Shown piece after piece: positions 3,305 through 30,848 of a stretch of DNA of 64,000 nucleotides. The stretch covers positions 1 to 64,000 of the forward strand of contig JAGRES010000034.1 in the NCBI GenBank assembly GCA_020446425.1, given 5' to 3'. The notes beneath the pieces are model-generated. The model was not told where the DNA came from, searched no databases, and saw only the letters and a program-made list of their open reading frames with translations. The stretch's first letter is position 1; each line of letters opens with the position of its first letter. The translations under genes and the position numbers were made by a program. The DNA comes from Sphingobium sp. (GTDB lineage Bacteria; Pseudomonadota; Alphaproteobacteria; Sphingomonadales; Sphingomonadaceae).

Positions 3305-3319
3305 ATAGGCCAAACCTAT
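3305..3319. promoter_or_regulatory. Putative LysR operator, ATAGG-CCAAA-CCTAT
   Basis: An exact ATAGG-N5-CCTAT palindrome, about 190 bp before the 3507-10331 operon and just after the hydratase gene. The inner T...A distance is 11 nt, the classic LysR T-N11-A spacing. The rest of the 229-bp gap (3278-3506) has no gene. The same motif recurs at seven other places in the island. Confidence 0.65.
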
Positions 3320-3506
3320 ATGAAGCATGGGCTTTTACCCGATAGCTCAATCCTGCCGAAACCGCCATCAGTCTTCACAGGGGCGCAGAATCCTGAAGTC
3401 AGACCACTGGTGCGCCCTCGAAGCTCATGACTGAAGAAATGAGGATGGTTTTGAAGGCATTTATATTCGCCCCCCCAAGCGAGGTAGAACTCCGGGGCAG
3501 GCTGAA

Positions 3507-4574
3507 ATGAACGACCAGCACGATATGTCGGAAGCGGTCGGTATGATCCGGGAGAGCGCCGCAGGTATTGCAGATCGCAATGACCTCGGCAGAATCCGCA
3601 AATTGCGTTACTCCGTCCCCGGTTTCGACCGGACGACATGGCGCGACATGTGCGAAATGGGTTGGCTGGCTCTTCGTCTGCCCGAAGAGAGCGGCGGCAT
3701 CGGGCTTGGCATGACCGCTTGCTGTGCGCTTATGGAAGAACTCGGCCGGGCATTGCTCCCCGAACCGATGATCGGCGCGATGCTTGCTGTTCAGGCGCTT
3801 GATGAGGCTCACCTCCCGAGCGTCATATCTGGTGAAAAAATTGTCCTTCCCGTGTGGCAGGAGGCACGCTCCAGCCTGTCAGTGGGGAATTCGGTCAAGT
3901 TCGAAGACGGCAGGATCAGCGGCACCAGGCAGTATGTCGCAATGGCGGCCGGAGCAGACGCTTTCCTCGTGGCCGTGGTGAATGGCTGGGTATTGGTCGA
4001 AGCGAATAGCCCCGGACTGTCACTTGAGATCGTGCAAACCCAGGACGGCGGCCATTATGGCACGCTGACTTTTGACCAGGTTCCGGCGTCAACCATCTCA
4101 ACGACAGCTCCCTCGGTGCCACTCGCCGAAGCTGCGCTGGCCACAGCCGCCTATCTGCTGGGCAGCATCGACGAAACCATCGAGCGTACGTTGGACTATC
4201 TGCGTACACGCGTTCAGTTCGGCAAAGCCATTGGCAGCTTTCAGGCGCTTCAACACCGGATGGTCGACCTCAAGTTGGAAGCGGCGCTGACCCGCGCCAG
4301 TGTCGGCGATGCGGCCCGGATATGGGATAACAGCGCCGGTTCAGCCCGGGCGCATGCTGCCGTTTCCCGCGCGAAGGCAAGGGCCTCCACAACCGCCATG
4401 CGGGTTACGCGGGAGGCGATACAGCTCCATGGCGGCATCGGTTATACCGACGAACATAACATTGGCCTTTATCTGCGCAAGGCGATGGTGATGGCGCCCG
4501 CATATGGCGACGCCAAATTCCACCGCCAGCGTTTCGCCGAACTCACCAAAGAATTGTCGGAGACGGCAGAATGA
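3507..4574 (+). CDS. Acyl-CoA dehydrogenase, probable non-catalytic subunit of a heteromeric pair
   Basis: A 355-residue protein with the acyl-CoA dehydrogenase fold: N-terminal helical domain (LRLPEESGGIGLG about 52-64), middle beta domain, and C-terminal domain with RTRVQFGKAIGSFQALQHR and IQLHGGIGYTDEHN. It is shorter than classical dehydrogenases (about 380-400). I see no Glu where MCAD (YEG) or isovaleryl-CoA dehydrogenase (LER) keeps its base. In actinobacterial steroid side-chain degradation such short subunits pair with a catalytic partner (FadE26/FadE27, FadE28/FadE29), so an alpha2beta2 enzyme with the next gene is the likely form (inference). It is the first gene of a six-gene operon and its stop overlaps the next start (ATGA at 4571). 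Confidence 0.82.
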   Translation: MNDQHDMSEAVGMIRESAAGIADRNDLGRIRKLRYSVPGFDRTTWRDMCEMGWLALRLPEESGGIGLGMTACCALMEELGRALLPEPMIGAMLAVQALDEAHLPSVISGEKIVLPVWQEARSSLSVGNSVKFEDGRISGTRQYVAMAAGADAFLVAVVNGWVLVEANSPGLSLEIVQTQDGGHYGTLTFDQVPASTISTTAPSVPLAEAALATAAYLLGSIDETIERTLDYLRTRVQFGKAIGSFQALQHRMVDLKLEAALTRASVGDAARIWDNSAGSARAHAAVSRAKARASTTAMRVTREAIQLHGGIGYTDEHNIGLYLRKAMVMAPAYGDAKFHRQRFAELTKELSETAE

Positions 4575-5734
4575 ATCTCGATCGCTACCGGCTTGACGAC
4601 TATAATGCACTCAGTGACGGTGAATTCCGGACGCTCGTCAGCGAATTCTTGAACAACCACCATCCTAAGGGCATCATCAATCCGCCCAAGCGCCTGCACT
4701 GGGATGAGGCCGAGCCCTGGTACATGATCCTGTCGCAGGCGGGATGGCTCGCCCCAGCCTGGCCACGCGAGCATGGCGGCATGGGCCTCTCCGCCGCCAA
4801 ACAGCTCATTTACATGGATGAGTTCGAGCGTTTTGGTGCCGCGCGTACTCCTGATCATGGCATCATGCTGCTGGGCCCACTACTCATCCGTTATGGCTCC
4901 GATGAGCAGCGTGCCCATTTCCTTCCCAAAATTTTGTCGGGCGAGCACATCTGGTGTCAGGGCTATAGCGAGCCTAATGCCGGTTCCGATCTTGCGTCAC
5001 TGCGCACTGAGGCCGTTCTCGACGGTGACGAATGGGTCGTGAACGGGCAAAAAATCTGGACGACGCTCGCGGGAGACGCCGACTGGATCTTCATGCTCGT
5101 ACGCACGGATAAGACGGTGAAGAAGCAGGAAGGCATCAGCTTCCTGCTGGTGCCGATGGATGCACCTGGCGTTACTGTCCGCGCCATTCACAATCTCGAT
5201 CTTCAAGACGAGTTTTCCGAAGTGTTCTTCGATGATGTGCGCGTTCCCAAAACCAACCTTGTTGGGGAAGTCAACAAGGGGTGGACCATGGCCAAGGCCC
5301 TTCTGGGCTTCGAGCGCATATTCCTGGGTTCTCCGCGTCAAGCCGCCCATGCTCTTTCACGCCTGCGCTTGCTGGCCGACCATGTCGGAGTGCGCGGAGA
5401 GCCTGACTTTGAGGATCGTTACACTCAACTTCGTCTTGATCTGGCGGATCATGAGTCTCTTTTCGAGGAGAGCGCCGACCGGCTGAGGCGTGGCGAGACA
5501 CTGGGTGCGGACGTCTCCTTCCTCAAGCTCAACCAGACCTCGCTCTTTCAGCGCATAACCGAGTTGATGCTGGATATCGCGGGTGAGGACGGCGGCTTGC
5601 TAGAACCCATTGGCGACAACCGCGATCTCAATCCAATGGGACTATTTCTGACCGCACGCGCTGCGACGATTTATGGCGGCGCGTCCGAAGTCCAGCGCAA
5701 TATCATCGCCAAGGCAGTGCTCGACCTGCCGTGA
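4571..5734 (+). CDS. Acyl-CoA dehydrogenase, probable catalytic subunit of the pair
   Basis: A 387-residue FAD-dependent acyl-CoA dehydrogenase that introduces the alpha,beta double bond. Visible markers are the N-terminal PREHGGMGL, the FAD/substrate loop QGYSEPNAGSDLASL and NGQKIWTT, and the C-terminal YGGASEVQRNII. The MCAD-type Glu is Gly here (YGG). A Glu in GFERIFLG (Glu248) sits where isovaleryl-CoA dehydrogenase keeps its base, so it is the likely catalytic residue. It overlaps the previous gene by 4 nt, which usually means coupled translation of partner subunits. Electrons would go to an electron-transfer flavoprotein, not encoded here. Confidence 0.87.
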   Translation: MNLDRYRLDDYNALSDGEFRTLVSEFLNNHHPKGIINPPKRLHWDEAEPWYMILSQAGWLAPAWPREHGGMGLSAAKQLIYMDEFERFGAARTPDHGIMLLGPLLIRYGSDEQRAHFLPKILSGEHIWCQGYSEPNAGSDLASLRTEAVLDGDEWVVNGQKIWTTLAGDADWIFMLVRTDKTVKKQEGISFLLVPMDAPGVTVRAIHNLDLQDEFSEVFFDDVRVPKTNLVGEVNKGWTMAKALLGFERIFLGSPRQAAHALSRLRLLADHVGVRGEPDFEDRYTQLRLDLADHESLFEESADRLRRGETLGADVSFLKLNQTSLFQRITELMLDIAGEDGGLLEPIGDNRDLNPMGLFLTARAATIYGGASEVQRNIIAKAVLDLP

Positions 5735-5765
5735 CGACCCTATTCTGCATCAAGGAGCCCTTTGA

Positions 5766-6674
5766 ATGACATTGGACGGTAAAGTAGCGATTGTGACGGG
5801 CGCAGGCGGAGGCATTGGCCGTGCGATCGCTATTGCAATGGCCGAAGCGGGCGCGGCGGTGGTCATCAATGACGTCGGTGTCTCCCTGACCGGCGAAGGC
5901 GGCTCCGCCACCCCGGCCGAGGAAACCAAGGCGACGATCGAGGCGGCGGGCGGCCGCGCGACTATCAACACCGACAGCGTAGCCAGCTGGGAAGCCGCGC
6001 AAAACATCGTGAAATCGGCGGTCGATGCCTTTGGTCGGCTCGATATCGTCGTCAACAACGCCGGCATCCTGCGCGATGCATTCTTCCACAAGATGACGCC
6101 GCAAGACTGGACGTCGGTGATAGATGTACATCTCCACGGCAGCTTCTTCGTCAGCCGCGCAGCCGCAGAGATTTTCCGTGAGCAGGAAAGCGGCGCCTTC
6201 GTGCACATGACCAGCACGTCGGGTCTGATCGGCAATAATGCGCAGGCCAATTATTCGGCGGCGAAGATGGGCATATTGGGCCTGTCCAAGACCATCGCTC
6301 TCGACATGCAACGCTACAATGTCCGGTCCAACTGCGTCGCGCCATTCGCCTGGGGACGCATGACAGCGAATATCAAGGCGGAAACGCCGGACCAGATCAA
6401 GCGTGTCGAAACACTAAAGCAAATGACGCCGGAAAAGAATGCGCCTCTCGTAGTCGCGCTCGCCTCCGATGCCGCCAGCGCGGTTAACGGCCAGGTGTTC
6501 GCCGTGCGCCGTAACGAGATTTTCCTGATGAGCCAGAGCCGCCCGATCCGTTCGGTGCAGCGCGAGAGCGGCTGGACACCGGAACTGGTGCATGAACATG
6601 CCTTGCCCGCATTACTGCCCTCGATGCTGCCGCTCGACCGCAGCCAGGATGTCTTCACCTGGGATCCGGCGTGA
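5766..6674 (+). CDS. SDR-family (R)-3-hydroxyacyl-CoA dehydrogenase (MFE-2 type)
   Basis: A 302-residue short-chain dehydrogenase with TGAGGGIG (11-18), VINDVG (the acidic residue favours NAD), NNAG (about 95-98), and the catalytic YSAAK (Tyr163, Lys167). The long loop after strand 2 (GVSLTGEGGSATPAEE) and the extended C-terminus are typical of the dehydrogenase unit of peroxisomal MFE-2 / 17beta-HSD type 4. It should oxidise (R)-3-hydroxyacyl-CoA, pairing with the hydratase-2 at 2396-3277. It has an AAGGAG ribosome site before the ATG. It lies within the operon, 31 nt after the dehydrogenase pair and 20 nt before a third dehydrogenase. Confidence 0.86.
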   Translation: MTLDGKVAIVTGAGGGIGRAIAIAMAEAGAAVVINDVGVSLTGEGGSATPAEETKATIEAAGGRATINTDSVASWEAAQNIVKSAVDAFGRLDIVVNNAGILRDAFFHKMTPQDWTSVIDVHLHGSFFVSRAAAEIFREQESGAFVHMTSTSGLIGNNAQANYSAAKMGILGLSKTIALDMQRYNVRSNCVAPFAWGRMTANIKAETPDQIKRVETLKQMTPEKNAPLVVALASDAASAVNGQVFAVRRNEIFLMSQSRPIRSVQRESGWTPELVHEHALPALLPSMLPLDRSQDVFTWDPA

Positions 6675-6694
6675 TCCCCCGGAATATATGAGAA

Positions 6695-7870
6695 ATGACA
6701 ATGATTCTTAGTCCCTATGACAATGACGAATATGCCGATGTCCGCGAAGGCGTACGCCGCCTGTGCGCCGACTTTCCCGGAGACTATTGGCGCAAGCTCG
6801 ATGAGACGCGCTCCTACCCTACCGAGTTTGTCAACGCGCTGACCGAGGCGGGTTATCTCTCCGTCCTTATCCCGGAGGAATATGGCGGCTCGGGCCTGGG
6901 TCTTTCTGCTGCTGCGGCTGTGCTGGAAACCATTCAGGCGGAAGGCTGCAACGGCGGCGCATGCCACGCGCAGATGTACACGATGGGCACGATCCTGCGC
7001 CATGGCTCGGAAGAGCAGAAGCAGAAATACCTGCCTGGCATCGCCAGCGGCAAGTTACGCCTGCAGGCGTTCGGCGTCACCGAACCGACCAGCGGCACGG
7101 ATACGACGGCGCTGCGCACCTTCGCGAAGCGCGAAGGCGATGAATATGTTGTCAACGGCCAGAAAATCTGGACCAGCCGCGCCGAGCACAGCGACATCAT
7201 GCTGCTGCTGGCGCGCACCACGCCACGCGATGAGACGAAGAAGAAGACCGAGGGCCTGTCGACCTTCATTGTCGATATGCGCGAGGTTGTCGGAAAGAGC
7301 CTCACCATCCAGCCGATCCGCACGATGATGAACCACGCCACCTGCGAGGTCTTCTTCGAGGACATGCGTATCCCTGCGGAAAATCTGCTGGGAGAGGAAG
7401 GCAAGGGCTTCCGCTACATCCTGTCCGGCATGAACGCCGAGCGCACGCTGATTGCGGCGGAATGTGTGGGCGACGCCAAATGGTTCACCCGCAAATCGGC
7501 CGAATATGCGAATGAACGCCAGGTTTTCGGGCGGCAGATCGGCGCCAATCAGGGCATTCAGTTCCCGATCGCGCGCGCCTATGCCAACATGCGCGCAGCC
7601 GAACTGATGGTGCGCGAGGCCGCGCGTCTTTACGAGGCGGGTGAGCCGATGGGCGCTGAAGCGAATATGGCGAAGATGCTGGCCGCCGACGCTTCCAACG
7701 AAGCGGCCAATGTCTGCATCCAGACCCATGGCGGCTTCGGCTTCGCCGAGGAATATGACGTGGAGCGCAAGTTCCGCGAAACACGCCTCTATCAGGTCGC
7801 GCCGATCTCGACCAACCTCATCCTCTCCTTCCTTGCCGAGCATGTTCTCGGCATGCCGCGGAGCTATTGA
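6695..7870 (+). CDS. Acyl-CoA dehydrogenase (third of the operon)
   Basis: A 391-residue acyl-CoA dehydrogenase with IPEEYGGSGLGLSAAA, FGVTEPTSGTDTT, NGQKIWTS, RQVFGRQIGANQGIQFP and THGGFGFAEEYDVERKFRETRLYQVAPIS. The MCAD base position is occupied by the neutral APIS segment. A Glu at 249 in GMNAERTLIA matches the isovaleryl-CoA dehydrogenase base position, so the enzyme should still be catalytic, possibly on a branched or bulky acyl-CoA. Unlike the first two it is full length and probably homotetrameric. Its TGA overlaps the ATG of the thiolase gene. A second ATG two codons in (6701) is an equally possible start. Confidence 0.88.
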   Translation: MTMILSPYDNDEYADVREGVRRLCADFPGDYWRKLDETRSYPTEFVNALTEAGYLSVLIPEEYGGSGLGLSAAAAVLETIQAEGCNGGACHAQMYTMGTILRHGSEEQKQKYLPGIASGKLRLQAFGVTEPTSGTDTTALRTFAKREGDEYVVNGQKIWTSRAEHSDIMLLLARTTPRDETKKKTEGLSTFIVDMREVVGKSLTIQPIRTMMNHATCEVFFEDMRIPAENLLGEEGKGFRYILSGMNAERTLIAAECVGDAKWFTRKSAEYANERQVFGRQIGANQGIQFPIARAYANMRAAELMVREAARLYEAGEPMGAEANMAKMLAADASNEAANVCIQTHGGFGFAEEYDVERKFRETRLYQVAPISTNLILSFLAEHVLGMPRSY

Positions 7871-9066
7871 TGCGCCGCGCCGCAATTGTCAGCCCGCTAC
7901 GCACCCCTGTAGGCGCATTCGGCGGCGCGTTGAAGGATGTACCGGTCGAAACGCTCGGCAGCATCGTCGTCGACGCTGTACTGGAAAAAACCGGCGTCGA
8001 CCCGGCCCGGATCGAGGACGTCGTCTTCGCTCAGTCCTATGCCAACAGTGAGACCCCCTGCGTTGGGCGCTGGATTGCCTTGCAGGCCGGGCTACCGATC
8101 GAAGTGCCGGGTATCCAGATCGACCGCCGCTGTGGGGGCGGTTTGCAGGCTATCGTGACCGCCGCGATGATGATCGAAAGCGGCGCATGCGACATGGTAC
8201 TCGCTGGCGGCGTCGAGAGCATGAGCCGCATCGAATATTACACGACCGACATGCGCTGGGGCAAACGCTCCGGCACAACGAAATTCTATGACCGACTGGA
8301 TCGTGGGCGCGAACGTTCCCAGCCCGTCGAACGCTTCGGTTATATCTCCGGCATGATCGAAACGGCTGAAACGCTGGCAAGCGAATATGGCATCACCCGT
8401 GAGGAAGCAGATGCGTTCGCTGCCGAAAGCCATCGCCGCGCGACCGCCGCATGGGATGACGGACGTTTCGCCGAAGAGGTAGTTCCCGTGCCAGTGCCGC
8501 AACGCAAAGGCGATCCCATAATCTTCGCCCGTGACGAGGGTATTCGCCCCGGCACAACACCGGAAACCTTGGCCAAGCTGCGCGTCCTCCAGAAGGACGG
8601 TACCGTCACCGCCGGCAATGCCGCGCAGCAAAATGACGCAGCCGCCGCCTGCCTGATCGTCGCCGAAGACAAGCTTGCCGAATTGGGTCTTGAACCGATT
8701 GCTTTTCTGCGCGGCTGGGCGGCGACAGGGTGCGATCCGGCGCGTATGGGTATCGGTCCGGTTCCTGCCACCAAAAAAGTGCTCGCCAAGACCGGGCTGA
8801 GTTTAGACGACATGGACTTGGTGGAAGTCAACGAAGCGTTCGCTGCTCAGGTACTGGCCGTGCTCAAGGGCTGGAACTGGGATGACCGGTCGAAGCTCAA
8901 CGTCAATGGCTCCGGCATTTCCCTTGGTCACCCAATCGGGGCCACAGGCGTACGTATGATGACCACCCTGACCCATGAGATGCGTCGTCGCGGAGCACGT
9001 TATGGCCTTGAAACCATGTGCATCGGCGGCGGCCAGGGCATGGCAGCGATCTTCGAGCGCGCCTGA
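7870..9066 (+). CDS. Thiolase (acetyl-CoA C-acyltransferase)
   Basis: A 398-residue thiolase that cleaves a 3-ketoacyl-CoA with CoA to release acetyl- or propionyl-CoA. Nucleophilic Cys88 lies in DRRCGGGLQA, the catalytic His in GHPIGATG, and the second Cys in MCIGGGQG, all in standard places. The segment around Cys88 (RCGGG) differs from the common CSSG/CASG versions. I chose the ATG at 7870 because it overlaps the previous TGA (TGATG); a TTG one codon earlier is possible but unlikely. Its own stop overlaps the next start in the same way, so the three genes are translationally coupled. It ends the beta-oxidation sequence of dehydrogenase, hydratase, SDR, thiolase. Confidence 0.92.
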   Translation: MRRAAIVSPLRTPVGAFGGALKDVPVETLGSIVVDAVLEKTGVDPARIEDVVFAQSYANSETPCVGRWIALQAGLPIEVPGIQIDRRCGGGLQAIVTAAMMIESGACDMVLAGGVESMSRIEYYTTDMRWGKRSGTTKFYDRLDRGRERSQPVERFGYISGMIETAETLASEYGITREEADAFAAESHRRATAAWDDGRFAEEVVPVPVPQRKGDPIIFARDEGIRPGTTPETLAKLRVLQKDGTVTAGNAAQQNDAAAACLIVAEDKLAELGLEPIAFLRGWAATGCDPARMGIGPVPATKKVLAKTGLSLDDMDLVEVNEAFAAQVLAVLKGWNWDDRSKLNVNGSGISLGHPIGATGVRMMTTLTHEMRRRGARYGLETMCIGGGQGMAAIFERA

Positions 9067-10331
9067 TGCGTGGCGGACGCCCGGGACAGGAAATAGCTCT
9101 CGACAGTATCGACTGGGCAAAGCTCGTTCCCGAAGGCGCGATGGTTGTGTGGGGGCAAGCGTCGGCCGAACCCACCACGCTCACCGCATCCCTCATCGCC
9201 CAGCGCGCGACGATAGGCCATTTCCGTGCCTTTGTCGGTATGAGCTGGGGAGACAGCGTATCGTCCGATCACGGCGATCATGTATCGTTCAGCTCCTATT
9301 GCGGTGCAGGCGCGAACCGCCTGCTGGGCGATGCTCTCGACATCCTGCCGATCCCCTACAGCGACCTTGCGCCGACATTGGCGAAGGACAGGCCCATATT
9401 GCTGCTGAGCCTTGGCCCCGGCAGTGGTCCAGACAGCTTCGGCTATGGCGCGGGCCGTGAATATCTGGCGGACCTGAGCGATACGGCCAGCCTTGTCATC
9501 GCCGAGGTCAACGACCGCTTGCCGCGCAGTTCAAGCCGCGACGGCGAAATACCGCGCGATTGTATCGACCTGTTTATACGCACATCCAACGTCCCTCTTT
9601 CCGCCGCTGCTGCGACTTTCGGCGAGGTCGAACAGAGGATTGCAGCACGCGTCGCGGATCTGATCGAAGATGGTTCAACATTGCAGATCGGCCTGGGCGG
9701 CATCCCTGCCGCCGTCTTGCATGCACTGCGCGGGCATCGCGATCTGGGGGTACATTCCGGCCTTATAGGCGACGAGATCGCCGATCTGGCGAAAGCAGGC
9801 GTCATCACAAATGAGCGTAAGACAATTGATCGTGGATTGACTGTCACCGGCCTGCTCGCGGGCGGACGAAAGCTGATGGACTGGGCAGACGATAATATGC
9901 ACCTGGCGCTGCGTCCTACCAGCTACACACATGACAGCGCGGTCCTTGCGGCCATCGACAAGTTCGTGGCGATCAACTCGGCGATAGAAATCGACCTGAC
10001 TGGCCAGGTTAATGCTGAAGTGGCCGGCGGCCGCTATGTCGGCGCGGTCGGCGGCGCCGGCGCCTTTTTGCGCGGGGCGCATGAATCGAAGGGAGGGCTA
10101 CCCATCATCGCTCTGCCATCCACAGTCAAAGGAAGATCACGGATCGTTGCGCGATTGTCAGGCCCGGTTAGCACGGCGCGTGTTGATGCAGGCATTTTCG
10201 TGACTGAGCATGGCGTTGCCGACCTGCGCGGCCTCAGCCTTCGCAAGCGGCGCGAAGCCATGCTGGCTATCGCTGATCCCACTTGCACTGCCGTGATCGA
10301 GCAGGAACTGGCACGCACCGCAGCCACATAA
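9066..10331 (+). CDS. Family I CoA-transferase / acetyl-CoA hydrolase-like, catalytic Glu apparently replaced
   Basis: A 421-residue protein of the 4-hydroxybutyrate CoA-transferase / acetyl-CoA hydrolase family. It has GLGGIPAAVLHAL (about 209-221), then LGVHSGLIGDEIADL, and the C-terminal FVTEHGVADLRGLSLRKR. In characterised members the segment after GIGGIP usually reads H-[ST]-E-M, and I believe that Glu is the residue that carries CoA. Here it reads HSG (Gly232). Unless a nearby acid (Glu237) takes over, it may not be an ordinary transferase. Start: ATG at 9066 overlapping the thiolase TGA; an in-frame ATG at 9018 lies inside the thiolase and is unlikely. It is the last gene of the operon. 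Confidence 0.8.
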   Translation: MRGGRPGQEIALDSIDWAKLVPEGAMVVWGQASAEPTTLTASLIAQRATIGHFRAFVGMSWGDSVSSDHGDHVSFSSYCGAGANRLLGDALDILPIPYSDLAPTLAKDRPILLLSLGPGSGPDSFGYGAGREYLADLSDTASLVIAEVNDRLPRSSSRDGEIPRDCIDLFIRTSNVPLSAAAATFGEVEQRIAARVADLIEDGSTLQIGLGGIPAAVLHALRGHRDLGVHSGLIGDEIADLAKAGVITNERKTIDRGLTVTGLLAGGRKLMDWADDNMHLALRPTSYTHDSAVLAAIDKFVAINSAIEIDLTGQVNAEVAGGRYVGAVGGAGAFLRGAHESKGGLPIIALPSTVKGRSRIVARLSGPVSTARVDAGIFVTEHGVADLRGLSLRKRREAMLAIADPTCTAVIEQELARTAAT

Positions 10332-10454: not shown

Positions 10455-10469
10455 ATAGGGCAAGCCTAT
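10455..10469. promoter_or_regulatory. Putative LysR operator, ATAGG-GCAAG-CCTAT, between convergent genes
   Basis: An exact copy of the island palindrome, but in the 168-bp gap between the 3' ends of the CoA-transferase gene (10331) and the LysR gene (10500). No promoter would normally be expected there. A 26-codon frame opens at 10481 but runs into the LysR 3' end and is not convincing. It may be a relic of a lost gene or a second binding site. Confidence 0.5.
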
Positions 10470-10499: not shown

Positions 10500-11477
10500 T
10501 CAGCTTTGTGCAGGGAGGCGAGCCTCGAGATGATGCCGCTCGATCATCTCGGCTATTATAGTGGTAAGCATATGCTCCACTGTAATGCTGGCGCGCGACA
10601 CTGATCGTGAACGTTTCCTGATAAGGTAAGCCGTTCTGCGTATCGTCGGCTTGATGATCTCAACCAACGCCAGCGAACCGTTTGCGACTTCGTTGATCAC
10701 CGCCGCATGCGGCAAAATAGTATACGCACTCGCCCGGTCAGCCATAGCGATGATCTGCGGAAGGGAATCTATCTCCGTCACAACATCCAGACGAACGCCG
10801 TTGCTCTTTGCAAATCGCTCGATCACCTCGCGCGCGCCATGAGGACGGCTCGGCAGCACAAGTGGCAACGCCTGTACTTCGGCGAGTGTAATGGGCTTTT
10901 CAGCTTTTCCGTTCGGCAGTATCACGCCGTCCCAATTATCGGGTGCGGTGACCAGGAAAAGATCCTCGCTTAATACTGGCTGTGCCGTAACATGAGACGT
11001 ATCTGGCACCTCGTAGACACAGCCCAGCTCGATCCGCTCGTTCAGGATCCATTCCATGATATAACCCGACAGCGCCTCTGCTATATGCAACCGCACTTGC
11101 GGAAATTCCGCCTGGATAGTTTCAGCCAATGGAACACTCAAAAGCAGGCCCATTGAGGGAGGAAAAGCGATCGACACAGGGCCACGCGCTTCTCCGCCCA
11201 GGTGACGGACATCTTCGACAGCCAACTCCACATTGTGCAAGATATCGCGTGCATGCCGGGAAAGCGCGACCCCGGCCTCCGTGAGATGCACACCCCTGGC
11301 GCCGCGAATAATGAGCTGTGTATCAAGCTTCTTTTCCAAGCGCGATACATGCTCGGACAGAGAAGGCTGAGCTAAGCCGAGTACAGCCGCCGCTGAGGAA
11401 ATGGATCCCTGCTCGGCAATCGCTATGAAATAGTGAAGCTGCCGAAGATCAATAGGAGGTATTCGTCCTTCATCCAT
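10500..11477 (-). CDS. LysR-family regulator, candidate master regulator of the island
   Basis: A 325-residue LysR-type protein. The winged-helix HTH covers about residues 13-70 (LRQLHYFIAIAEQGSIS, then AAAVLGLAQPSLSEHVSRLEKKL); the remainder is the effector-binding domain (about 100-310), most like the NAC/CynR-type group. Such proteins bind T-N11-A palindromes and usually activate catabolic operons when a pathway intermediate binds. An ATAGG-N5-CCTAT-like site (11476-11490) overlaps its own start codon, which suggests autoregulation, and exact copies of the site stand before other operons of the island. It is transcribed away from the 12042-16843 operon. The assignment of regulator to motif is inference. 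Confidence 0.88.
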   Translation of the reverse strand: MDEGRIPPIDLRQLHYFIAIAEQGSISSAAAVLGLAQPSLSEHVSRLEKKLDTQLIIRGARGVHLTEAGVALSRHARDILHNVELAVEDVRHLGGEARGPVSIAFPPSMGLLLSVPLAETIQAEFPQVRLHIAEALSGYIMEWILNERIELGCVYEVPDTSHVTAQPVLSEDLFLVTAPDNWDGVILPNGKAEKPITLAEVQALPLVLPSRPHGAREVIERFAKSNGVRLDVVTEIDSLPQIIAMADRASAYTILPHAAVINEVANGSLALVEIIKPTIRRTAYLIRKRSRSVSRASITVEHMLTTIIAEMIERHHLEARLPAQS

Positions 11478-11490
11478 AGTATCTACCTAT
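11476..11490. promoter_or_regulatory. LysR operator-like site over the regulator's own start codon
   Basis: Reads ATAGT-ATCTA-CCTAT on the plus strand: one mismatch to the ATAGG-N5-CCTAT palindrome. It overlaps the start codon (11475-11477) of the LysR gene. A bound protein there would block its translation start region or promoter clearance, the standard layout for negative autoregulation in LysR systems. Confidence 0.5.
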
Positions 11491-12041
11491 ACCCTTCGAG
11501 AGATATTTGCAGCATTTTTTCACCTGAGATTTCCCAGCCTCGTCAAAAAACGAGAGACAACATGAATATTTGAAAAAAATTCATTCATTGTGGTGAGGAA
11601 ACATGTCGCCAGCAACAGGGCCTCTTGCCAGCAAGAGCAGGTTAGCGCCGATTCTGCGGTTTTTGCTCGTTTAGCAAGCCTCACGAGCCAGGCGCGCCCA
11701 CTGGTTTTTGCCCGCCCATCCAGATCGTCACTGACCGACTCGGCTTCGATGCCTGCGAAACCTGTATGTGGCGCCCTTTGCGCCTCCGGATCGAGCCTGC
11801 CAAGGTCATTGCTGTACGAATAGCCGAGCGCTGCACAATCACCTCTCCATGAAGCCGTTGTTCGGTCTTTTTGTCAGGCCTCAAGTTCAAATGAGCAAGT
11901 CAAACATATAGGATTAGCCTATGGATATTGTAGGCCCCTGATCCAGATGTTTGCGCAGTCAGCCGCTATATTGCATCGGTCATTCACCACTTTTTCGAGT
12001 GGGTATGCAGCTCAGGGACACGCAAGAGAGAATCTGGCCAG
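11478..12041. other. 564-bp divergent intergenic region
   Basis: This gap separates the LysR gene from the second CoA-transferase operon. It carries operator-like sites at both ends (11476-11490 and 11908-11922). In the middle (about 11600-11890) several frames stay open for about 60-75 codons, but none has a ribosome site or a recognisable domain; a decayed gene or transposase cannot be excluded. No tRNA or strong terminator was seen. Confidence 0.5.
11908..11922. promoter_or_regulatory. Putative LysR operator, ATAGG-ATTAG-CCTAT
   Basis: An exact palindrome copy about 120 bp before the CoA-transferase start at 12042 and 430 bp from the LysR start. The position suits an activator site for the 12042-16843 operon. 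Confidence 0.65.
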
Positions 12042-13253
12042 ATGGGAGGAGCACTGAACGGTTACAGAGTCTTGGACTTTGGTCGCTACATTTCGGGCCC
12101 TTTTTGCGCGGCCCTGCTCGCCGATATGGGGGCGGAGGTCATTCGCATCGAACCAAATGCTGGCAGCGACGACAGATATGTTATGCCTATCGGCCAGGAC
12201 AATAGCGGCGGCGGTGCCGTTCACCATCATGTCAATCGCAACAAGCAGTCCATTGCCATCGACTTAGCGAGACCGGAAGGGCGTAAGCTTGTCGAGCGCC
12301 TGATAGCGGGAGCGGACGTGGTAGTCGCAAATATCCCTCCCAAAGCATTGGCAAAGGCCGGTCTCGACTACGACACCCTGCGCTCCATCAAACCTGATAT
12401 CATATTGACCACAGTCAACGCCTATGGCCTGAATAGCCCTTATGAGAACGAGATTGGTTTCGACTGTACCGGTCAGGCTCTGAGCGGCGCGATGTCGCTG
12501 ACCGGAACACCGGATCAGCCCTATCGGTCAGCGGTCTCTTATGTAGATTATTCCACCGCCATTTCCGCTGCTCTCGGTACAGTTGCCGCATTGCTGAAAC
12601 GCGAACGGACCGGAGAGGGAGAGCATGTCCATTGCTCCCTCCTCAAAACGGCACTGACGATCACCAACTCCATGCTGATCGAGGAGGCATCCGGCGCGCG
12701 CAGCCGCATTGCAACCGCCAATCGCAGCCCCATTTCCGGGCCTTCCGACCTATTCCGAACTCGGGACGGCTGGATCATGATCCAAATTATCGGCAATGCT
12801 ATGTTTCGCCGCTGGACAGAGTTGGTGGAAGCACCGGAACTTGTCAACGACCCTCGTTTTGCCGATGATCAGTCCCGCGGCGACAATGGAGAAGTTCTGA
12901 GCGCCATAACCTCCGCATGGACAGAGAACAAAACCATCGACGAATGCCTGAAACTCGCGGCAGCGCACCGTTTGCCGGTCACGCCCATGCTTTCACCGGC
13001 CCAGGCCCTGACCGCTTCAGAGGCCATTGAAAGTGGGATGTTCCAGTATGTGCCGACCCAGAACGGCCAGCAACTACCCATCGTTTCCTCGCTTTGCGAT
13101 TTTGCGAACGACGACAACAAATCACCCGCGCCGGCTCCTGCACTCGGCGCGCATACGACCGCGATCCTGACGAAAGCAGGTATAGACGCCGAAACCATTG
13201 ATCGGCTGTTCTCCGACGGTACGATTTCCGAAACCCCAGCACCTGTCGATTGA
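12042..13253 (+). CDS. Family III (CaiB/BaiF) CoA-transferase
   Basis: A 403-residue family III CoA-transferase. It begins GYRVLDFGRYISGPFCAALLADMGAE in the usual pattern (quoted in part: LDFGRYISGPFCA), followed by HHHVNRNKQSIAIDL and the catalytic segment GFDCTGQALSGAM with Asp141. The length is normal. It is the first gene of the second operon, 12 nt before an ATP-dependent acyl-CoA synthetase gene, so the pathway can load CoA in two ways: ATP-driven entry and CoA recycling from product to substrate. A weak GGGAGGAGCA-like ribosome site overlaps the beginning of the frame (the ATG is followed by GGAGGAGC), so a slightly later start is possible though none is obvious. Confidence 0.88.
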   Translation: MGGALNGYRVLDFGRYISGPFCAALLADMGAEVIRIEPNAGSDDRYVMPIGQDNSGGGAVHHHVNRNKQSIAIDLARPEGRKLVERLIAGADVVVANIPPKALAKAGLDYDTLRSIKPDIILTTVNAYGLNSPYENEIGFDCTGQALSGAMSLTGTPDQPYRSAVSYVDYSTAISAALGTVAALLKRERTGEGEHVHCSLLKTALTITNSMLIEEASGARSRIATANRSPISGPSDLFRTRDGWIMIQIIGNAMFRRWTELVEAPELVNDPRFADDQSRGDNGEVLSAITSAWTENKTIDECLKLAAAHRLPVTPMLSPAQALTASEAIESGMFQYVPTQNGQQLPIVSSLCDFANDDNKSPAPAPALGAHTTAILTKAGIDAETIDRLFSDGTISETPAPVD

Positions 13254-13265
13254 GGCTATTACAGT

Positions 13266-15209: not shown

Positions 15210-15239
15210 AACGAGCGACATTACCGAGAGGATTGCATA

Positions 15240-16022: not shown

Positions 16023-16033
16023 AGGGAAAACCT

Positions 16034-17416: not shown

Positions 17417-17423
17417 GCTCCGG

Positions 17424-18097: not shown

Positions 18098-18134
18098 ATA
18101 GGATTTGCATATGAATCCATAAGGTAAAACCTAT
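18098..18134. promoter_or_regulatory. Tandem pair of LysR operator-like sites
   Basis: Two imperfect copies of the island palindrome lie 22 bp apart, about two helix turns: ATAGG-ATTTG-CATAT (18098-18112, one mismatch) and TAAGG-TAAAA-CCTAT (18120-18134, two mismatches). LysR tetramers commonly bind such a recognition plus activation site pair on the same DNA face. It lies 104 bp upstream of the TonB receptor start and ends 7 bp before a TTGACG. Confidence 0.5.
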
Positions 18135-20578: not shown

Positions 20579-20935
20579 TTAAAGCGCGGAAAAGTCCCCA
20601 TAAACGCGATATTCGCCTATTCCCTCTTCGCCCCTGTCAAAAACGACGCAGGCGGGAGCCTCCACAGCAGAACCGTCCTTGCGGAAGAAAGTGCAACCGA
20701 CCTCGACATAAGTACGGCCATTATCTCCAGTCTGCGTTCTCTCGATCACATGCTTCATGCCTGAGATGCTCTGGAAAAAGCTATCGAGAAAGCCGTGAAT
20801 AGCCTCCTTGCCCTCCACCGCCGGGAGATTGCACAGGCGGAACGACCCAGCTTGCGCAAAATGCCGGACCACATTATCTGCCTGCAGGGAATCCAGATCA
20901 GCGAAAATCTGCACGATATTCTGGTCTGTCACCAT
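20579..20935 (-). CDS. Small cytoplasmic NTF2-like (SnoaL / limonene-epoxide-hydrolase-type) protein
   Basis: About 118 residues with no signal peptide. The fold is suggested by the N-terminal IFADLDSLQADNVVRHFA, central VEGKEAIHGFLDSFFQSI and the final GIGEYRVYGDFS, which resemble the SnoaL_2 / limonene-1,2-epoxide hydrolase group. The frame can begin at 21007, but the ATG at 20935 has GGAG 4 nt upstream and starts just at the domain, so I chose it. It is the third NTF2-like gene in 6 kb, but it is cytoplasmic and not closely similar to the exported pair. It lies 99 nt downstream of the fused protein gene on the same strand and may be co-transcribed with it. The substrate is unknown. Confidence 0.7.
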   Translation of the reverse strand: MVTDQNIVQIFADLDSLQADNVVRHFAQAGSFRLCNLPAVEGKEAIHGFLDSFFQSISGMKHVIERTQTGDNGRTYVEVGCTFFRKDGSAVEAPACVVFDRGEEGIGEYRVYGDFSAL

Positions 20936-21034
20936 CCAACTCCATTCATGTTGTTTCCGAAAATTCGGTGCTGCCATCACAATATGACCGCAGCACCGGC
21001 CCACCATAAGGGCATGTCGATATCGTCTTCGGTC

Positions 21035-22048
21035 CTATTTGGGCGTTGACACCTTGGAGAGGCCAGACCCCTGCTCGCGGATGATCTTCCAGCCGTCTGC
21101 GGTACGGCGGAATGTCACCATGCTGAGGATGCGGCTTTTCAGAATTTCTTTGCCCAGATCGACAGTGATATTGTAGAAAACCGGCGCAACGGCGATGTCG
21201 CCAGAGACCAGCACGTCATTAATGGGCTCGACCTTGTTACTGAAATTCCATCCCTGAAGCATCTCATCCCAGATCGCGCCATATGCGCCCGGGGATCGGG
21301 CCACACGTTTTTGCGGGTCGATATCGTCGAACAGATAAACGTCCTTGGACTCCCAGTCGTAGAATTTCGACAACTGCCGCTTGAAGTTGAACGGCGGGTC
21401 CCCCGGCATGTGGCGCCAGCCGACTTCCAACCACTCGGTCGCCAGACGCTTGATCTCGATCTTGTCAGCCTCGATGCTCCCGGCATCCGGGATTACCGCG
21501 CCCCCGCCGGCATATTCGCCAGCGGCGGTTTCGGCGCTGGCAGGAACACGTAGCTTCATGGCATCGAAGGCCTGAAGGTCATAATACATGGTCAATTTGG
21601 TGACCATGCCCTTGTCCATCTCGAACAGCCAGGCATAGCTGTTGTTGTAAGGCGCGCCGTCCTTGCCCATGGCGGTAAGGTCGAAATGCGCCACCACCGT
21701 ATCGCCATCGGCGTAAATGCCGTTGACCTTTACGCGTGGCGGAGCGGCAAACCGGGAAAGGAACGGTTTCGCCACCTGATCCATGAAAGCTTGCTTCCCG
21801 TTCCAGGTACCTGCCGATGGGCCGGAGCCGGGAATTACGAGAACAGCGTCGTCAGTCAGCAAATTGAAAACTTCACCGTGGCCGGCCGCCCATTTGTCAT
21901 AGGCCTTGGTGATGATGTCGCGATTGGACATAGTCTCAGCCGAGCTTTTGGCCGCCTGAGCTGGAGTGAAGCTCTGCACACTCACCAAGCCTATGGCTAC
22001 CGCAGCCACGGCCGCCCGCATCTGGCCCTTTGCGCATTTTCCGAACAT
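21035..22048 (-). CDS. Exported protein with two fused NTF2-like domains
   Basis: A 337-residue protein with a Sec signal (AAVAAVAIGLVSVQSF, cleavage after PAQA at about 32). Domain 1 (about 38-165) has IPGSGPSAGTWNGKQAF and DGAPYNNSYAWLFEM; domain 2 (about 195-335) has MPGDPPFNFKRQLSKFY and GWKIIREQGSGLS. Domain 1 matches the product of 16835-17416 and domain 2 that of 17424-17975, so this is a natural fusion of the neighbouring split pair. A Gly/Ala-rich linker joins the halves at about 180-190. It is divergent from the quinohemoprotein gene, with an exact operator copy between them (22139-22153). A periplasmic role beside that dehydrogenase is likely; the activity is not known. Confidence 0.82.
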   Translation of the reverse strand: MFGKCAKGQMRAAVAAVAIGLVSVQSFTPAQAAKSSAETMSNRDIITKAYDKWAAGHGEVFNLLTDDAVLVIPGSGPSAGTWNGKQAFMDQVAKPFLSRFAAPPRVKVNGIYADGDTVVAHFDLTAMGKDGAPYNNSYAWLFEMDKGMVTKLTMYYDLQAFDAMKLRVPASAETAAGEYAGGGAVIPDAGSIEADKIEIKRLATEWLEVGWRHMPGDPPFNFKRQLSKFYDWESKDVYLFDDIDPQKRVARSPGAYGAIWDEMLQGWNFSNKVEPINDVLVSGDIAVAPVFYNITVDLGKEILKSRILSMVTFRRTADGWKIIREQGSGLSKVSTPK

Positions 22049-22138: not shown

Positions 22139-22153
22139 ATAGGATAAACCTAT
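22139..22153. promoter_or_regulatory. Putative LysR operator, ATAGG-ATAAA-CCTAT
   Basis: An exact palindrome copy, midway between the divergent starts of the fused NTF2-like gene (22048, 90 bp away) and the quinohemoprotein gene (22251, 97 bp away). A single bound activator could serve both directions. Confidence 0.65.
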
Positions 22154-22250
22154 ACACCTGCTTGGGCAGAGCGATGGCCGCCTTCTTTCGTTGCTTGCGC
22201 ACCCTTACAAAACATAGATTGGCCAAAAGCGAGAGAGGGGACCCAGATTG

Positions 22251-24347
22251 ATGAAAATGACCAGTAAGGCGCTGCGTTCCTCCTGCTTATATGGCCTCTC
22301 GCTTCTGGCGCTGTCGAGTTGCGGAGGCCCCACATCCAACGGCGGAAACTGGATCGGCTATGGCCGCACGGCCAGCGAGGACAGGTACAGTCCCGGCGAC
22401 GCGATCAACGAGCAAACGATCAACCGGCTAGGGCTGGACTGGGCGCTCACGCTGGACGAGCCCGGCGGGCTGGAAGCAACGCCGCTTGCCGTTGGGGGCA
22501 TATTATATTTCACGGCCGCGAACGGAACGGTATACGCCGCCGATGTCATCAACAAGCGCGTGCTCTGGAAATATGATCCGCAAGCGTGGAAAGTGGCACC
22601 GCGCATGTTGCGAGGCTTCGAACCGATAAATCGAGGTCTGGCCTATGAGAACGGCAAGCTGTTTCTGGGTTCATTCGATGGCCGGCTGATTGCAATCAAT
22701 GCGCGAACCGGCAAGGAGTTATGGCAAACATCCACGCTTGACCGGCCTGGCTCGCGCATCACGATCACCGGCGCGCCGCGGGTATTCAAGGGCAAAGTCG
22801 TAATCGGCCAGGGCGGCGCGGATTGGGGGGCGCGCGGCTATGTGAGCGCCTACGACGCCAATACCGGGGAAATGCTGTGGCGGTTCTATACCGTACCGGG
22901 GAAGCCTGGCACGGATGGCGATAACCCTGCAATGCAGATGGCGGCGAAAACCTGGTCCGGCGAGTGGTGGCGCTGGGGCGGCGGCGGCACTCCCTGGAAT
23001 GCGATGACATTCGACGAGGAAATGAACCGCCTCTATATCGGCACGGGCAACAGCTCCGTCTACGACCCGAAACTGCGAAGCCCGGGCGGAGGAGACAATC
23101 TGTTCCTGGCATCAATAGTCGCGGTGGATGCCGATACCGGTGACTATATCTGGCACTATCAGCTCAATCCTCGGGAAGCATGGGACTATAAGGCGACGAT
23201 GGACATCGTGCTCGCCGATCTTCAAATAGATGGCCAAGAGCGAAAGGTGCTGATGCAGGCTCCCACCAATGGTTTCTTCTATGTGATTGATCGCTCCAAC
23301 GGCAAGCTTATTTCAGCCGAGAAGTTTGGCAAGGCCAACTGGGCCGACCGCATAGACATCAAGACCGGCAGGCCGGTGGAGCGCCCGGACATTCGTTATG
23401 AGAAAGGCCCGGTAACGATCTGGCCCGGCACCATCGGCGCCCATAACTGGCAGGCCATGGCCTTTAGCAAGAAAGCCGGGCTCGTCTACATCCCATACAT
23501 GCAGCTGCCCACAACCTTCAACTCGACTGCCGAGGACAAGGCGGAGTTGCCGTCGCTCACGCTCGACAAGCCCAAGATGCGGTTCGGGATCGGTGCGACC
23601 TTCCGCTCCGCCATTGTCGACCCGGATGATGGCAAGGGCGCGCTCATTGCATGGGATCCCGTTCGTCAGAAGCAGGTATGGCGCGTCGACCGCGAGTATA
23701 TATGGAATGGCGGCATTCTGGCGACGGCGGGGAATATCGTTTTCCAGGGTACAGCCGATGGCCAGCTCGAAGCCTATTCCGCAGACCGTGGCAAGAAATT
23801 ATGGTCATTCGGTGCGGGTAACGGCATCATTGCCCCGCCCATCAGCTTTGCGGCCAATGGTCATCAATATATCGCGGTTCTTGCCGGCTATGGCGGCGCA
23901 TCTGCGGCCGGTGGCAAATTATTCGATACCGGATGGCGATATGGCATACACCCCAGCCGCCTACTGGTTTTCCGGCTGGACGGTGCGGAGAAGCTTCCCG
24001 ATACGCCGCCCCCAGTTGACTCGACACCGCCTGTCGACGACGAGAAAATCGTCATCGACGCCGCCGCCGCCACACGAGGCGCGAAGCTCTACAGCGAAAC
24101 GTGCCGCATCTGCCATGGCGCTGGCGCGGCCGCGACAGGCCCCACCGCACCAGACCTCAGAGCATCCGGCATCACGCTCGATTTGAACGCGTTCAAAATG
24201 GTGCTCAACGGCGCATTGGTTGAACGCCAGATGCCAAAATATGACGATCTTTCCGAAGATGAGATGCGGGACCTGTTCATGTATATCCGCAGCGAAGCCC
24301 GCCACCCCGGAAAGGCGGGTGAAAAGAAGCTGAGCAACGGCGCCTGA
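22251..24347 (+). CDS. Lipoprotein PQQ-dependent quinohemoprotein alcohol dehydrogenase
   Basis: A 698-residue protein with a lipobox (LALSSC, Cys24), so it is anchored to a membrane facing the periplasm. An eight-bladed PQQ propeller (about 30-570) shows repeated W-motif blades such as YAADVINKRVLWKYD and AINARTGKELWQT, the catalytic-Asp region NPREAWDYKATMD, and GTGNSSVYD. A C-terminal cytochrome c domain carries CRICH (Cys618, Cys621, His622). This is the type II quinohemoprotein layout: it oxidises alcohols or aldehydes and passes electrons to the heme. The adjacent Cys-Cys pair common in this family is absent (RGFEPINRG stands in that region). ATG at 22251 and TTG at 22248 are both possible starts. 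It shares a promoter region with the fused NTF2-like protein. Confidence 0.87.
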   Translation: MKMTSKALRSSCLYGLSLLALSSCGGPTSNGGNWIGYGRTASEDRYSPGDAINEQTINRLGLDWALTLDEPGGLEATPLAVGGILYFTAANGTVYAADVINKRVLWKYDPQAWKVAPRMLRGFEPINRGLAYENGKLFLGSFDGRLIAINARTGKELWQTSTLDRPGSRITITGAPRVFKGKVVIGQGGADWGARGYVSAYDANTGEMLWRFYTVPGKPGTDGDNPAMQMAAKTWSGEWWRWGGGGTPWNAMTFDEEMNRLYIGTGNSSVYDPKLRSPGGGDNLFLASIVAVDADTGDYIWHYQLNPREAWDYKATMDIVLADLQIDGQERKVLMQAPTNGFFYVIDRSNGKLISAEKFGKANWADRIDIKTGRPVERPDIRYEKGPVTIWPGTIGAHNWQAMAFSKKAGLVYIPYMQLPTTFNSTAEDKAELPSLTLDKPKMRFGIGATFRSAIVDPDDGKGALIAWDPVRQKQVWRVDREYIWNGGILATAGNIVFQGTADGQLEAYSADRGKKLWSFGAGNGIIAPPISFAANGHQYIAVLAGYGGASAAGGKLFDTGWRYGIHPSRLLVFRLDGAEKLPDTPPPVDSTPPVDDEKIVIDAAAATRGAKLYSETCRICHGAGAAATGPTAPDLRASGITLDLNAFKMVLNGALVERQMPKYDDLSEDEMRDLFMYIRSEARHPGKAGEKKLSNGA

Positions 24348-27093: not shown

Positions 27094-27121
27094 GGTGCCA
27101 AGCAACTTACGGCTTGGCACC
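27094..27121 (-). terminator. Terminator of TonB receptor copy 2
   Basis: A 10-bp perfect stem (27094-27103 with 27112-27121), an 8-nt loop, and on the minus strand six T residues. It lies 17 nt after the receptor stop and separates the two tandem receptor transcripts. Confidence 0.88.
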
Positions 27122-27138
27122 CGATTAGAGTTCCGGTC

Positions 27139-29553: not shown

Positions 29554-29743
29554 TCCAAATCCCCTCTTTTGGCACCGTCGCTTCGTTTCGAATACGATCG
29601 GCGTCTTCTCGTTTTGCCGGGAGCAGCATGAGGTCGACAGGCCCTCCCGAAACAAGAAGAGCTTAGCCTTTTTGGAACAGCCGATAATCCGGCTTTATGA
29701 CAATGGGTTATTAAGCTGGCAGGATATAATGACCCGACAGGCG

Positions 29744-30709
29744 TTACTTGACTCCGACCAGCCGGCGGGGGACGGAAGCATAACTCCGGGTGTCCTGCAA
29801 AGGATGACAACCTTCGGCGCCGAACGTCCGCACTGCTTCTATAAATGCCCGCTGGGCCGCGGTTGCATGCCGCTGCCGCGGGTAATAGGCGCAAATTTCC
29901 AGTTTCGGCAGCGTCCAGTCCTGCAGCAAGGGCACCAGCAACCTTCTGTCTATGTGAGGCTCCATCCATTCTCTTGTCCAGACTGTAACACCCAGCCCGT
30001 CCAGTGCGGAGGCCAGGGCGACACCGCAGTCATTGACGGCCAGCGCGCCGGAAACGGCAATATCTTCGACAGCTTCGCCGTTGGTGAAGCACCAATTATC
30101 TGGCTTCTGCTGACCAGCCTGCCGCCATGTAATCAGGCGATGATTAGCCAAATCCGCCGGATGTGCAGGCGTACCGTTCTTCTGGATGTAGGAAAGCGAC
30201 GCGACCGCAATTCTGCTCAACGTCGGACCAGCCGATATTGCAATCATGTCACGGTCGACAAACTGGCGCATACCAAAGGCAATATCGACACCCTCTTTCA
30301 CAAGGTCGACCGGCGTTTCGCAGCAAACAATCTCAACGGAAACATCCGGGTTGCTCCGCTGAAAAATCGTAACAATGGGCTGCACAACTTGCGCCACGAC
30401 AATCTGGGGGGCGCATAACCGCAATTTCCCTCCCACCATTTCGCGAAGATTGGTGGCCTTGCTCAGAACATCATCGAACTGCTCCATAAGCGGCACGATC
30501 CGCTCCAGCAGCCATTCTCCCGCTTCGGTGGGAGCAACGCTGCGCGTTGTGCGATTCAACAGGCGGATGCCCATCCTATCCTCAAGGCCGCGGATGATCT
30601 GGCTGAGCGCCGAGGGAGACACACCCATCATGAGTGCCGCCTGTGTGAAGCTTCTTTTTTCTGCGACATGAGCGAAAGCCTGCAGTTCCGCAAATTGGCT
30701 GCCTCGCAT
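29744..30709 (-). CDS. LysR-family regulator (second in the island)
   Basis: A 321-residue LysR protein of the CrgA/DsdC-like subgroup: HTH at about 4-60 (ELQAFAHVAEKRSFTQAAL, then SPSALSQIIRGLEDRMG), then an effector domain. ATG at 30709 is preceded by GGGAG at 9 nt; an upstream TTG (30715) is less likely. It is divergent from the amidase gene and precedes the TonB receptor on the same strand, so it may control either. An exact island operator lies in its upstream region (30834-30848), so it may itself belong to the regulon of the first LysR. Confidence 0.88.
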   Translation of the reverse strand: MRGSQFAELQAFAHVAEKRSFTQAALMMGVSPSALSQIIRGLEDRMGIRLLNRTTRSVAPTEAGEWLLERIVPLMEQFDDVLSKATNLREMVGGKLRLCAPQIVVAQVVQPIVTIFQRSNPDVSVEIVCCETPVDLVKEGVDIAFGMRQFVDRDMIAISAGPTLSRIAVASLSYIQKNGTPAHPADLANHRLITWRQAGQQKPDNWCFTNGEAVEDIAVSGALAVNDCGVALASALDGLGVTVWTREWMEPHIDRRLLVPLLQDWTLPKLEICAYYPRQRHATAAQRAFIEAVRTFGAEGCHPLQDTRSYASVPRRLVGVK

Positions 30710-30833
30710 GACCAAATTCTCCCGTCAGAACATTCTCAAAGCGAGCCCGTAACACCGACATAGATCGCGATTGGGCGAGCCGCCTGGTCAGGATAGCACT
30801 TGCTGCCGCCTTCATCCCGCAAATTGATAACCG

Positions 30834-30848
30834 ATAGGCTTTCCCTAT
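30834..30848. promoter_or_regulatory. Putative LysR operator, ATAGG-CTTTC-CCTAT
   Basis: An exact palindrome copy between the divergent second LysR gene (start 30709) and the amidase gene (start 30957), about 110-125 bp from each. On the minus strand its spacer (GAAAG) fits the common nnAAR pattern seen in the other copies. Confidence 0.65.

Follow-up and report, generated by a model that had tools for sequence, protein, structure and literature searches.

The first 31 kb of a 64-kb stretch of Sphingobium sp. DNA (hereafter the window: the first 64 kb of contig C30, JAGRES010000034.1, in a 2.73-Mb genome of 36 contigs) holds an island of catabolic genes interspersed with copies of the 15-bp palindrome ATAGG-N5-CCTAT. 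The palindrome is very probably a real, conserved operator family, that of the LysR-type regulator encoded at 10500-11477 in the same island, because most close relatives of this protein have it beside their genes. Sequence comparison leads us to give a probability of about 0.87 to the regulon as a whole, in which this LysR would read the palindrome, place a second dimer beside it, control a set of target genes and repress its own gene. The regulon would be of an ordinary kind, strongly evidenced; what is new is the clear operator, its second half-site and one probable orphan site.

Copies of the palindrome in the island and in S. subterraneum

Exact copies are found five times in the window, at 3305, 10455, 11908, 22139 and 30834, each where a preliminary description of this DNA had placed it. 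The near copies listed there are also present, at 11476 and 18098 with one mismatch and at 18120 with two. The sites and the genes around them are as follows; the compared species, Sphingobium subterraneum, carries the closest relative of the lysR gene (90% identity at the protein level).

3305..3319, plus strand: exact site, 187 bp before the acyl-CoA (coenzyme A) dehydrogenase operon 3507-10331; half-site ATGGG at +22 toward the operon
3507..10331, plus strand: beta-oxidation operon (small and large acyl-CoA dehydrogenases, short-chain dehydrogenase/reductase [SDR], third acyl-CoA dehydrogenase, thiolase, CoA hydrolase/transferase)
10455..10469, no strand assigned: exact site with genes converging on it from both sides, neither of them downstream
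10500..11477, minus strand: LysR-type regulator (HTH_1, LysR_substrate), proposed reader of the sites
11476..11490, minus strand: one-mismatch site overlapping the lysR start codon; the one-mismatch site of S. subterraneum is likewise at -13
11908..11922, plus strand: exact site, 119 bp before the CoA-transferase/acyl-CoA ligase operon 12042-16843; half-site GTAGG at +22
12042..16843, plus strand: second CoA operon (family III CoA-transferase, AMP-binding acyl-CoA ligase, SDR, enoyl-CoA hydratase)
18098..18134, plus strand: tandem imperfect sites, 22 bp apart, 103 bp before the TonB receptor 18238-20373
18238..20373, plus strand: TonB-dependent receptor
20579..21007 (SnoaL_2) and 21035..22048, minus strand: two SnoaL/NTF2-like genes
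22139..22153, plus strand: exact site between the NTF2-like gene 21035-22048 (minus) and the quinohemoprotein dehydrogenase gene 22248-24347 (plus)
22248..24347, plus strand: pyrroloquinoline quinone (PQQ) quinohemoprotein alcohol dehydrogenase with C-terminal cytochrome c; in-frame ATG at 22251
30834..30848, plus strand: exact site between a second LysR gene 29744-30715 (minus) and the amidase gene 30957-32543 (plus)
30957..32543, plus strand: amidase

ATAGG is the most frequent 5-N5-5 inverted repeat of the window (five copies), and matches to the palindrome with up to two mismatches number 35, against 14.5 ± 3.6 in shuffled sequences (0 of 100 shuffles reach 35). The whole genome contains seven exact sites, compared with four for a reversed control pattern, and the first 31 kb has five of these, against 0.08 for an even spread (binomial P ~4e-9, uncorrected for the choice of stretch). 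In a 149-genome sample of the family, this genome ranks highest with its seven exact sites; the others have 0 to 4. All five exact window copies are noncoding, by our own gene list a class that makes up 9.6% of positions 1-31000. The preliminary description, which put every site in an intergenic gap and none in the right half of the window, is thus right for the exact copies, but the 11476 site overlaps the start codon of lysR and a one-mismatch copy lies at 61424. Target-side sites end 94-187 bp ahead of start codons, and the palindrome has the T-N11-A geometry which, upstream of target genes, defines a LysR-type operator in the available part of PMC4834489; 10455 is the exception by its position. 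The one-mismatch copies at 12176 and 26291 lie inside genes and look like chance. The two other exact sites of the genome were also treated as chance, C14:79795 being inside an open reading frame (ORF) of 1841 aa and C8:141233 inside one of 334 aa that matches no Pfam family and is flanked by gyrB and a HerA-like helicase gene.

The comparison of orthologous upstream regions that the preliminary description had proposed showed five sites to be kept in S. subterraneum (window/S. subterraneum positions 3305/692169, 10455/698708, 11476/699718, 11908/699857 and 22139/706003). Four of these were paired in MAFFT alignments of the gaps, and 11908 was paired by its place before an orthologous gene. 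The 692169 site is exact and lies in the same gap as 3305 with its spacer changed; 699857, before the orthologous gene, is exact as well, and 706003, between orthologues, has one mismatch. The four matching S. subterraneum gaps (819 bp) contain five sites with at most one mismatch, where that genome's own site count predicts 0.012 (P = 2e-12). This gap count replaces the letter-by-letter agreement between the two species (47/50 for the arms, 10/25 for the spacers; Fisher 7e-7), the arm figure being partly circular, as the arms themselves served to call the sites.

S. subterraneum also has sites outside the shared set. An unlinked exact pair at C4:221083 and 224253 (L082 9083 and 12253) brackets a TonB receptor and adjoins a quinohemoprotein gene whose product is 41% identical to window 22248-24347; it is likely to be a second locus of the regulon. 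Another exact site, 689808, lies 132 bp before an ORF holding the orthologue of window 1185-2333. At the start of C1 (L081 456-6491), two exact and two one-mismatch sites occur within 6.0 kb, near genes for a flavin adenine dinucleotide (FAD) oxidoreductase, a SnoaL protein, a LysR-like protein and an acyl-CoA ligase. Immediately after the 3305 site, the block 3339-3372 is largely conserved in S. subterraneum and is perhaps the promoter itself.

The palindrome beside lysR genes of other genomes

The product of 10500-11477 has the two domains of a LysR-type regulator (PF00126, E 1.4e-20; PF03466, E 2.7e-32). Among the best 25 of 36 NCBIfam matches, no model scored above its own cut-off; the nearest by score are NAC (170 bits, cut-off 309) and CynR (161 bits, cut-off 277), so neither name applies. 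Six of 94 genus genomes, our own included, have an orthologue with at least 51% identity. In a search of 397 family genomes, in which the top five candidates per genome were scored, at least two have this LysR at E 1e-60 or better among the matches listed, our own and G303; two others among 385 genomes of the class, G803 (46%) and G724 (42%), have a relative at E 1e-58. Plasmid records with a LysR match numbered 254, of which eight were examined.

The six orthologue-bearing genomes have 25 exact sites in all, 16 of them no more than 20 kb from lysR: 5/7 in our own, 5/10 in S. subterraneum, 2/2 in G411, 2/4 in G303, and 1/1 each in G408 and G475. In the five genomes other than our own, the sites so counted are all at 12 kb or less. 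Clustering persists when our own genome and S. subterraneum are set aside, 6/8 exact sites then lying within 12 kb of lysR where 0.04 are expected for 4.5-Mb genomes (P ~6e-13 for G411, G303, G408 and G475, with the 12-kb limit set after seeing the sites). The 88 genus members with no orthologue have a mean of 1.23 exact sites and a maximum of five. In the six regions examined (~319 kb), the 16 exact sites compare with one control match. Each of the six genomes has a site with at most one mismatch upstream of its lysR gene. The site is exact in G411 (-67) and G303 (-88) and has one mismatch in G408 (-67), in G475 (-83), and in our own genome and S. subterraneum (-13 in both). Distances other than the last two were counted from the first aligned residue and may be up to ~25 bases off the true start. 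The annotation of plasmid pEP1 starts the G475 gene further upstream, placing the -83 site inside the coding sequence; we take this start to be too early.

The association extends beyond the genus. On plasmid pFER4 of Paracoccus ferrooxidans, whose LysR is 44% identical, 21 kb of sequence include three exact sites; the one closest to lysR is 959 bp upstream, ahead of the SDR gene that precedes lysR. When 22 window proteins were compared with the G475 and pFER4 loci, only LysR was shared above 35% identity, which makes the lysR gene the common factor of the sites. In G411 and G408, a second site near lysR precedes a gene whose product, an acyl-CoA dehydrogenase, shares 86% identity with that of window 6695-7870. 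In a tree of 27 LysR sequences, LysR 10500-11477 falls in a nine-member clade (support 100/99), seven of whose members have an exact site near lysR. At the lysR loci of the eight other clade members, ATAGG with a gap of 5 is the top 5-mer inverted repeat for gaps of 3 to 9, with 13 copies (12 for the next-best word) in six of the eight, the absences being AntQ-1 and P. versutus; some GC-rich words reach six or seven of the eight loci, at other gaps. Since lysR and the palindrome occur together in most members of this Sphingobium/Paracoccus clade, LysR 10500-11477 is the likeliest reader, and the proposal of the preliminary description that this protein recognises the motif finds good support in the comparison.

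The scan for sites with at most one mismatch also covered 14 distant LysR loci of Sphingobium, each with flanks of 1.5 kb, and showed an exact site at one of them (L102), likewise before a TonB receptor; the tree leaves out five of these loci (L093, L095, L099, L100 and L103), and loci L054-L058 (22-36% identity) were outside the motif scan. No site with at most one mismatch occurs in 21 kb at the locus of a Burkholderiales relative (31%). As to surroundings, the G411 lysR locus (L107 3364-7322) has an integrase ~3 kb away and a DNA methylase gene 5 kb away, and two lysR relatives are carried by conjugative plasmids, pANTQ-1 and pEP1; the lysR switch may therefore be mobile.

Layout of the sites and competing explanations

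Beyond the arms, three features recur: a flanking Y/R pair, a spacer tendency and a half-site at +22. The spacer form nnAAR given in the preliminary description is met by three of the five exact window copies as written and by four on either strand. For all 29 sites compared the count on either strand is 11, against a flank background of 7.5% (P = 4e-6) and 4/31 control sites; the tendency is real, but fewer than half of the sites show it. These 29 sites comprise seven of our own genome, 11 of S. subterraneum and 11 from G411, G303, G408, G475 and P. ferrooxidans. Intragenic one-mismatch sites were left out, as were our own C8 and C14 sites, two unlinked G303 sites, the exact S. subterraneum site C3:74607 and two one-mismatch sites at the start of C1.

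Matching to a second copy of the motif peaks at +22 bp, with a score of 4.79 of 10 compared with 3.18 ± 0.23 after shuffling (0 of 2000 shuffles reach it). No other offset from 16 to 33 exceeds 3.76, and offsets 11 and 13 are also high, but the second copy there overlaps the first. The peak is seen in each group separately (4.86 in our own genome, 4.64 in S. subterraneum and 4.91 in the other five), scores reached by 2, 1 and 0 of 3000 shuffles, respectively. Thirty exact control sites, from genomes in which no orthologue was found within the samples (for the family part, among the matches listed), score 3.03 and have no half-site. The spacing is that of the window's own 18098/18120 pair. This degenerate third half-site is new here; it corresponds to the less conserved secondary site that LysR operators have beside the primary one, and it matches the two-dimer layout of LysR proteins. 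At sites with a nearby candidate target gene on one side only, judged by hand, it lies on the gene side in 8 of 10 cases, two ties aside, which gives weak support to a position toward the gene to be switched on. One of the eight, P. ferrooxidans 9042, counts only if an overlapping hypothetical ORF is wrongly annotated, and our own 11476 is included although it also has a gene 550 bp away on its other side.

Several observations weigh against the proposed regulon. The two misses just mentioned are the lysR promoters of G411 and G408, where the half-site is on the wrong side. Two of the nine clade members have no exact site near lysR: for AntQ-1 (Sphingobium, 53%) no site with one mismatch or less was found in 25 kb, the best match near lysR having three mismatches, one arm intact, 57 bp ahead of the annotated start, and for P. 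versutus (48%) none was exact in 21 kb, a one-mismatch site lying 7.1 kb off and two-mismatch sites, near chance, 74 and 206 bp upstream. Searches at the same one-mismatch level were negative within 3 kb of lysR in La6, Palleronia and Shinella (40%), with sites further out in La6 (9.7 kb) and Shinella (3.5 kb), and in the 3.9 kb seen of G803. In the sister group, P. turbinis and G724 have a one-mismatch site 42-47 bp upstream of lysR, which may be chance since the P. turbinis region also has two one-mismatch control matches. In our own genome, one-mismatch matches number 68 compared with 57 for the reversed control, a small excess, so that only exact or well-placed near sites are informative; the genome-wide scan proposed at the outset thus showed exact sites clustering at the island, but its counts at one and two mismatches are too near control to name further targets. 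Finally, the TonB receptor gene 24533-26857 has no upstream site with one mismatch or less, and 10455, between two converging genes, has none to drive in the window.

The last of these may have an explanation. In S. subterraneum, the counterpart of 10455 is the exact site 698708, and the gene 198 bp downstream of it (698159-698509, minus strand) encodes a SnoaL-like protein; the window's gap has no such gene. A tblastn search of the window with the SnoaL-like protein found one relative (44%), at 20579-21007, behind 21035-22048 and thus near the 22139 operator. Because S. subterraneum keeps the SnoaL gene at the matching place, 10455 looks like an orphan, probably left when the gene was lost or moved. 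Alternatively, LysR would read the sites but 10455 would be a working remote operator, looping to 11476 or 11908 or acting as a roadblock, rather than a relic. Its two perfect arms, and the exact site held at the same place in S. subterraneum, speak for such a role; yet that counterpart serves a gene missing from the window gap, and the secondary half-site is weak at 10455 (3 and 2 of 10), leaving a working operator the less likely of the two, though a contender. Separately, the double NTF2-like protein 21035-22048 seems to have a split copy in the window: its S. subterraneum orthologue is a single gene, and the minus-strand frames 16835-17503 and 17424-17975 each match one half of it.

It is improbable that the sites are read by another regulator, such as OxyR or the second LysR of the window (29744-30715), with the 10500 lysR gene a mere neighbour. 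The outer arms are those of the OxyR element, ATAG-N7-CTAT, in the part of PMC5002191 available, site 30834 precedes the 29744 gene, and S. subterraneum site 710772 is near another LysR gene. Against this, sites cluster at orthologues of the 10500 gene in loci otherwise differing in genes, and genus members lacking the orthologue show no excess. LysR 10500-11477 falls short of the OxyR equivalog cut-off (91 bits, cut-off 329) and has a single cysteine, not the redox pair that OxyR, by the same source, uses as a disulphide. The 29744 protein is a different LysR, nearest YafC though below cut-off; the S. subterraneum LysR at 711032 is outside the clade, and site 710772 also precedes a TonB receptor gene, by 64 bp. 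A census of OxyR by NF008361 at E 1e-70 used a threshold too strict to say which genomes have OxyR.

We regard as very improbable the idea that the palindromes are RNA hairpins (terminators or attenuators) or a small mobile repeat. A 5-bp stem closed by a 5-nt loop is possible at each, and 10455 is placed as a terminator would be; but against shuffles the five exact sites show only a slight gain in folding (z -0.7 to -1.7), 10455 folds otherwise, nearly all compared sites are upstream of genes, and neither a hairpin nor a mobile repeat explains the recurring Y/R pair, spacer tendency and half-site. Chance origin in AT-rich gaps, to which the small one-mismatch excess lends some colour, is contradicted by the exact-site clustering in six genomes, the sites kept in matching gaps and the +22 half-site, and is hardly credible.

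The proposed regulon and its relation to known systems

In the regulon as we propose it, a LysR dimer would bind the 15-bp palindrome while the second dimer of the same tetramer occupied the degenerate half-site nnAGG 22 bp off, in the majority of cases toward the gene it would activate. With inducer bound, probably a pathway intermediate, LysR would activate the two CoA/beta-oxidation operons, the TonB receptor 18238-20373 and the PQQ dehydrogenase together with the adjacent NTF2-like genes; the site that overlaps the lysR start codon would let it repress its own gene, 11476 being a likely site of autoregulation. We infer binding, the direction of control, the inducer and the amidase as a target. 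A pathway of periplasmic alcohol oxidation, TonB import, CoA activation and beta-oxidation would be plausible, and the N-terminal stretch of the longer NTF2-like protein (21035-22048) reads as an export signal.

The preliminary description had the whole island under joint control. Sites do stand before operons 3507 and 12042, before the TonB receptor 18238, and between the NTF2-like and quinohemoprotein genes (22048/22248) and the LysR and amidase genes (30715/30957), but coverage is incomplete, the genes 24533-26857 (TonB receptor) and 27139-29655 having no good site of their own and 10455 driving no window gene. The receptor gene 24533-26857 is preceded by two-mismatch sites at 27010-27024 and 27045-27059, perhaps a decayed operator, and its S. 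subterraneum orthologue has an exact site. Gene 27139-29655 lies behind the 29744 LysR gene in the same orientation, and readthrough from 30834 might reach it. The CoA genes 306-3277 begin near the contig edge, most of the sequence before them missing because the window (1-305 in front of these genes) starts at the end of contig C30. No amidase homologue was found among the window-protein matches in the compared S. subterraneum regions, to which the search was confined.

More tentatively, and with the odds somewhat against it, the operator of this clade, ATAGG-N5-CCTAT-N7-nnAGG, may be portable and remain constant as the genes under it are swapped, SnoaL-like genes hopping between operators and leaving orphans such as 10455. 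If so, Sphingobium chromosomes, a conjugative Sphingobium plasmid and a Paracoccus plasmid would put different catabolic genes under the same address, and new catabolic regulons could arise by shuffling genes under an existing switch. The case would suggest how an operator can outlive the gene it once served. In the open PubMed Central literature we found no report of the ATAGG-N5-CCTAT motif and no published operator for this LysR clade; the operator described here, second half-site included, can be used to look for catabolic genes in Sphingobium and Paracoccus, and it already points to the unlinked TonB receptor/quinohemoprotein pair of S. subterraneum.

Known systems, as far as the available parts of the reports describe them, offer close parallels. 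The ThnR regulon of Sphingopyxis granuli TFA (tetralin; PMC4834489) likewise has one LysR-type activator for several sphingomonad catabolic operons, with a T-N11-A primary palindrome, a loosely related secondary site and divergent promoters; it differs in its pathway and in that its binding sites were shown experimentally. LigR of Novosphingobium and SYK-6 (PMC12710314) is also a sphingomonad LysR serving several promoters, with binding around -51 to -85, but its motif is TT-N-GC-N6-TTAT and its targets are aromatic ring-cleavage genes. The OxyR element (PMC5002191), besides the outer arms noted above, has its first two repeats centred 22 bp apart (-66 and -44); OxyR differs as a cysteine redox sensor, and the sites of the island add an inner G/C pair.

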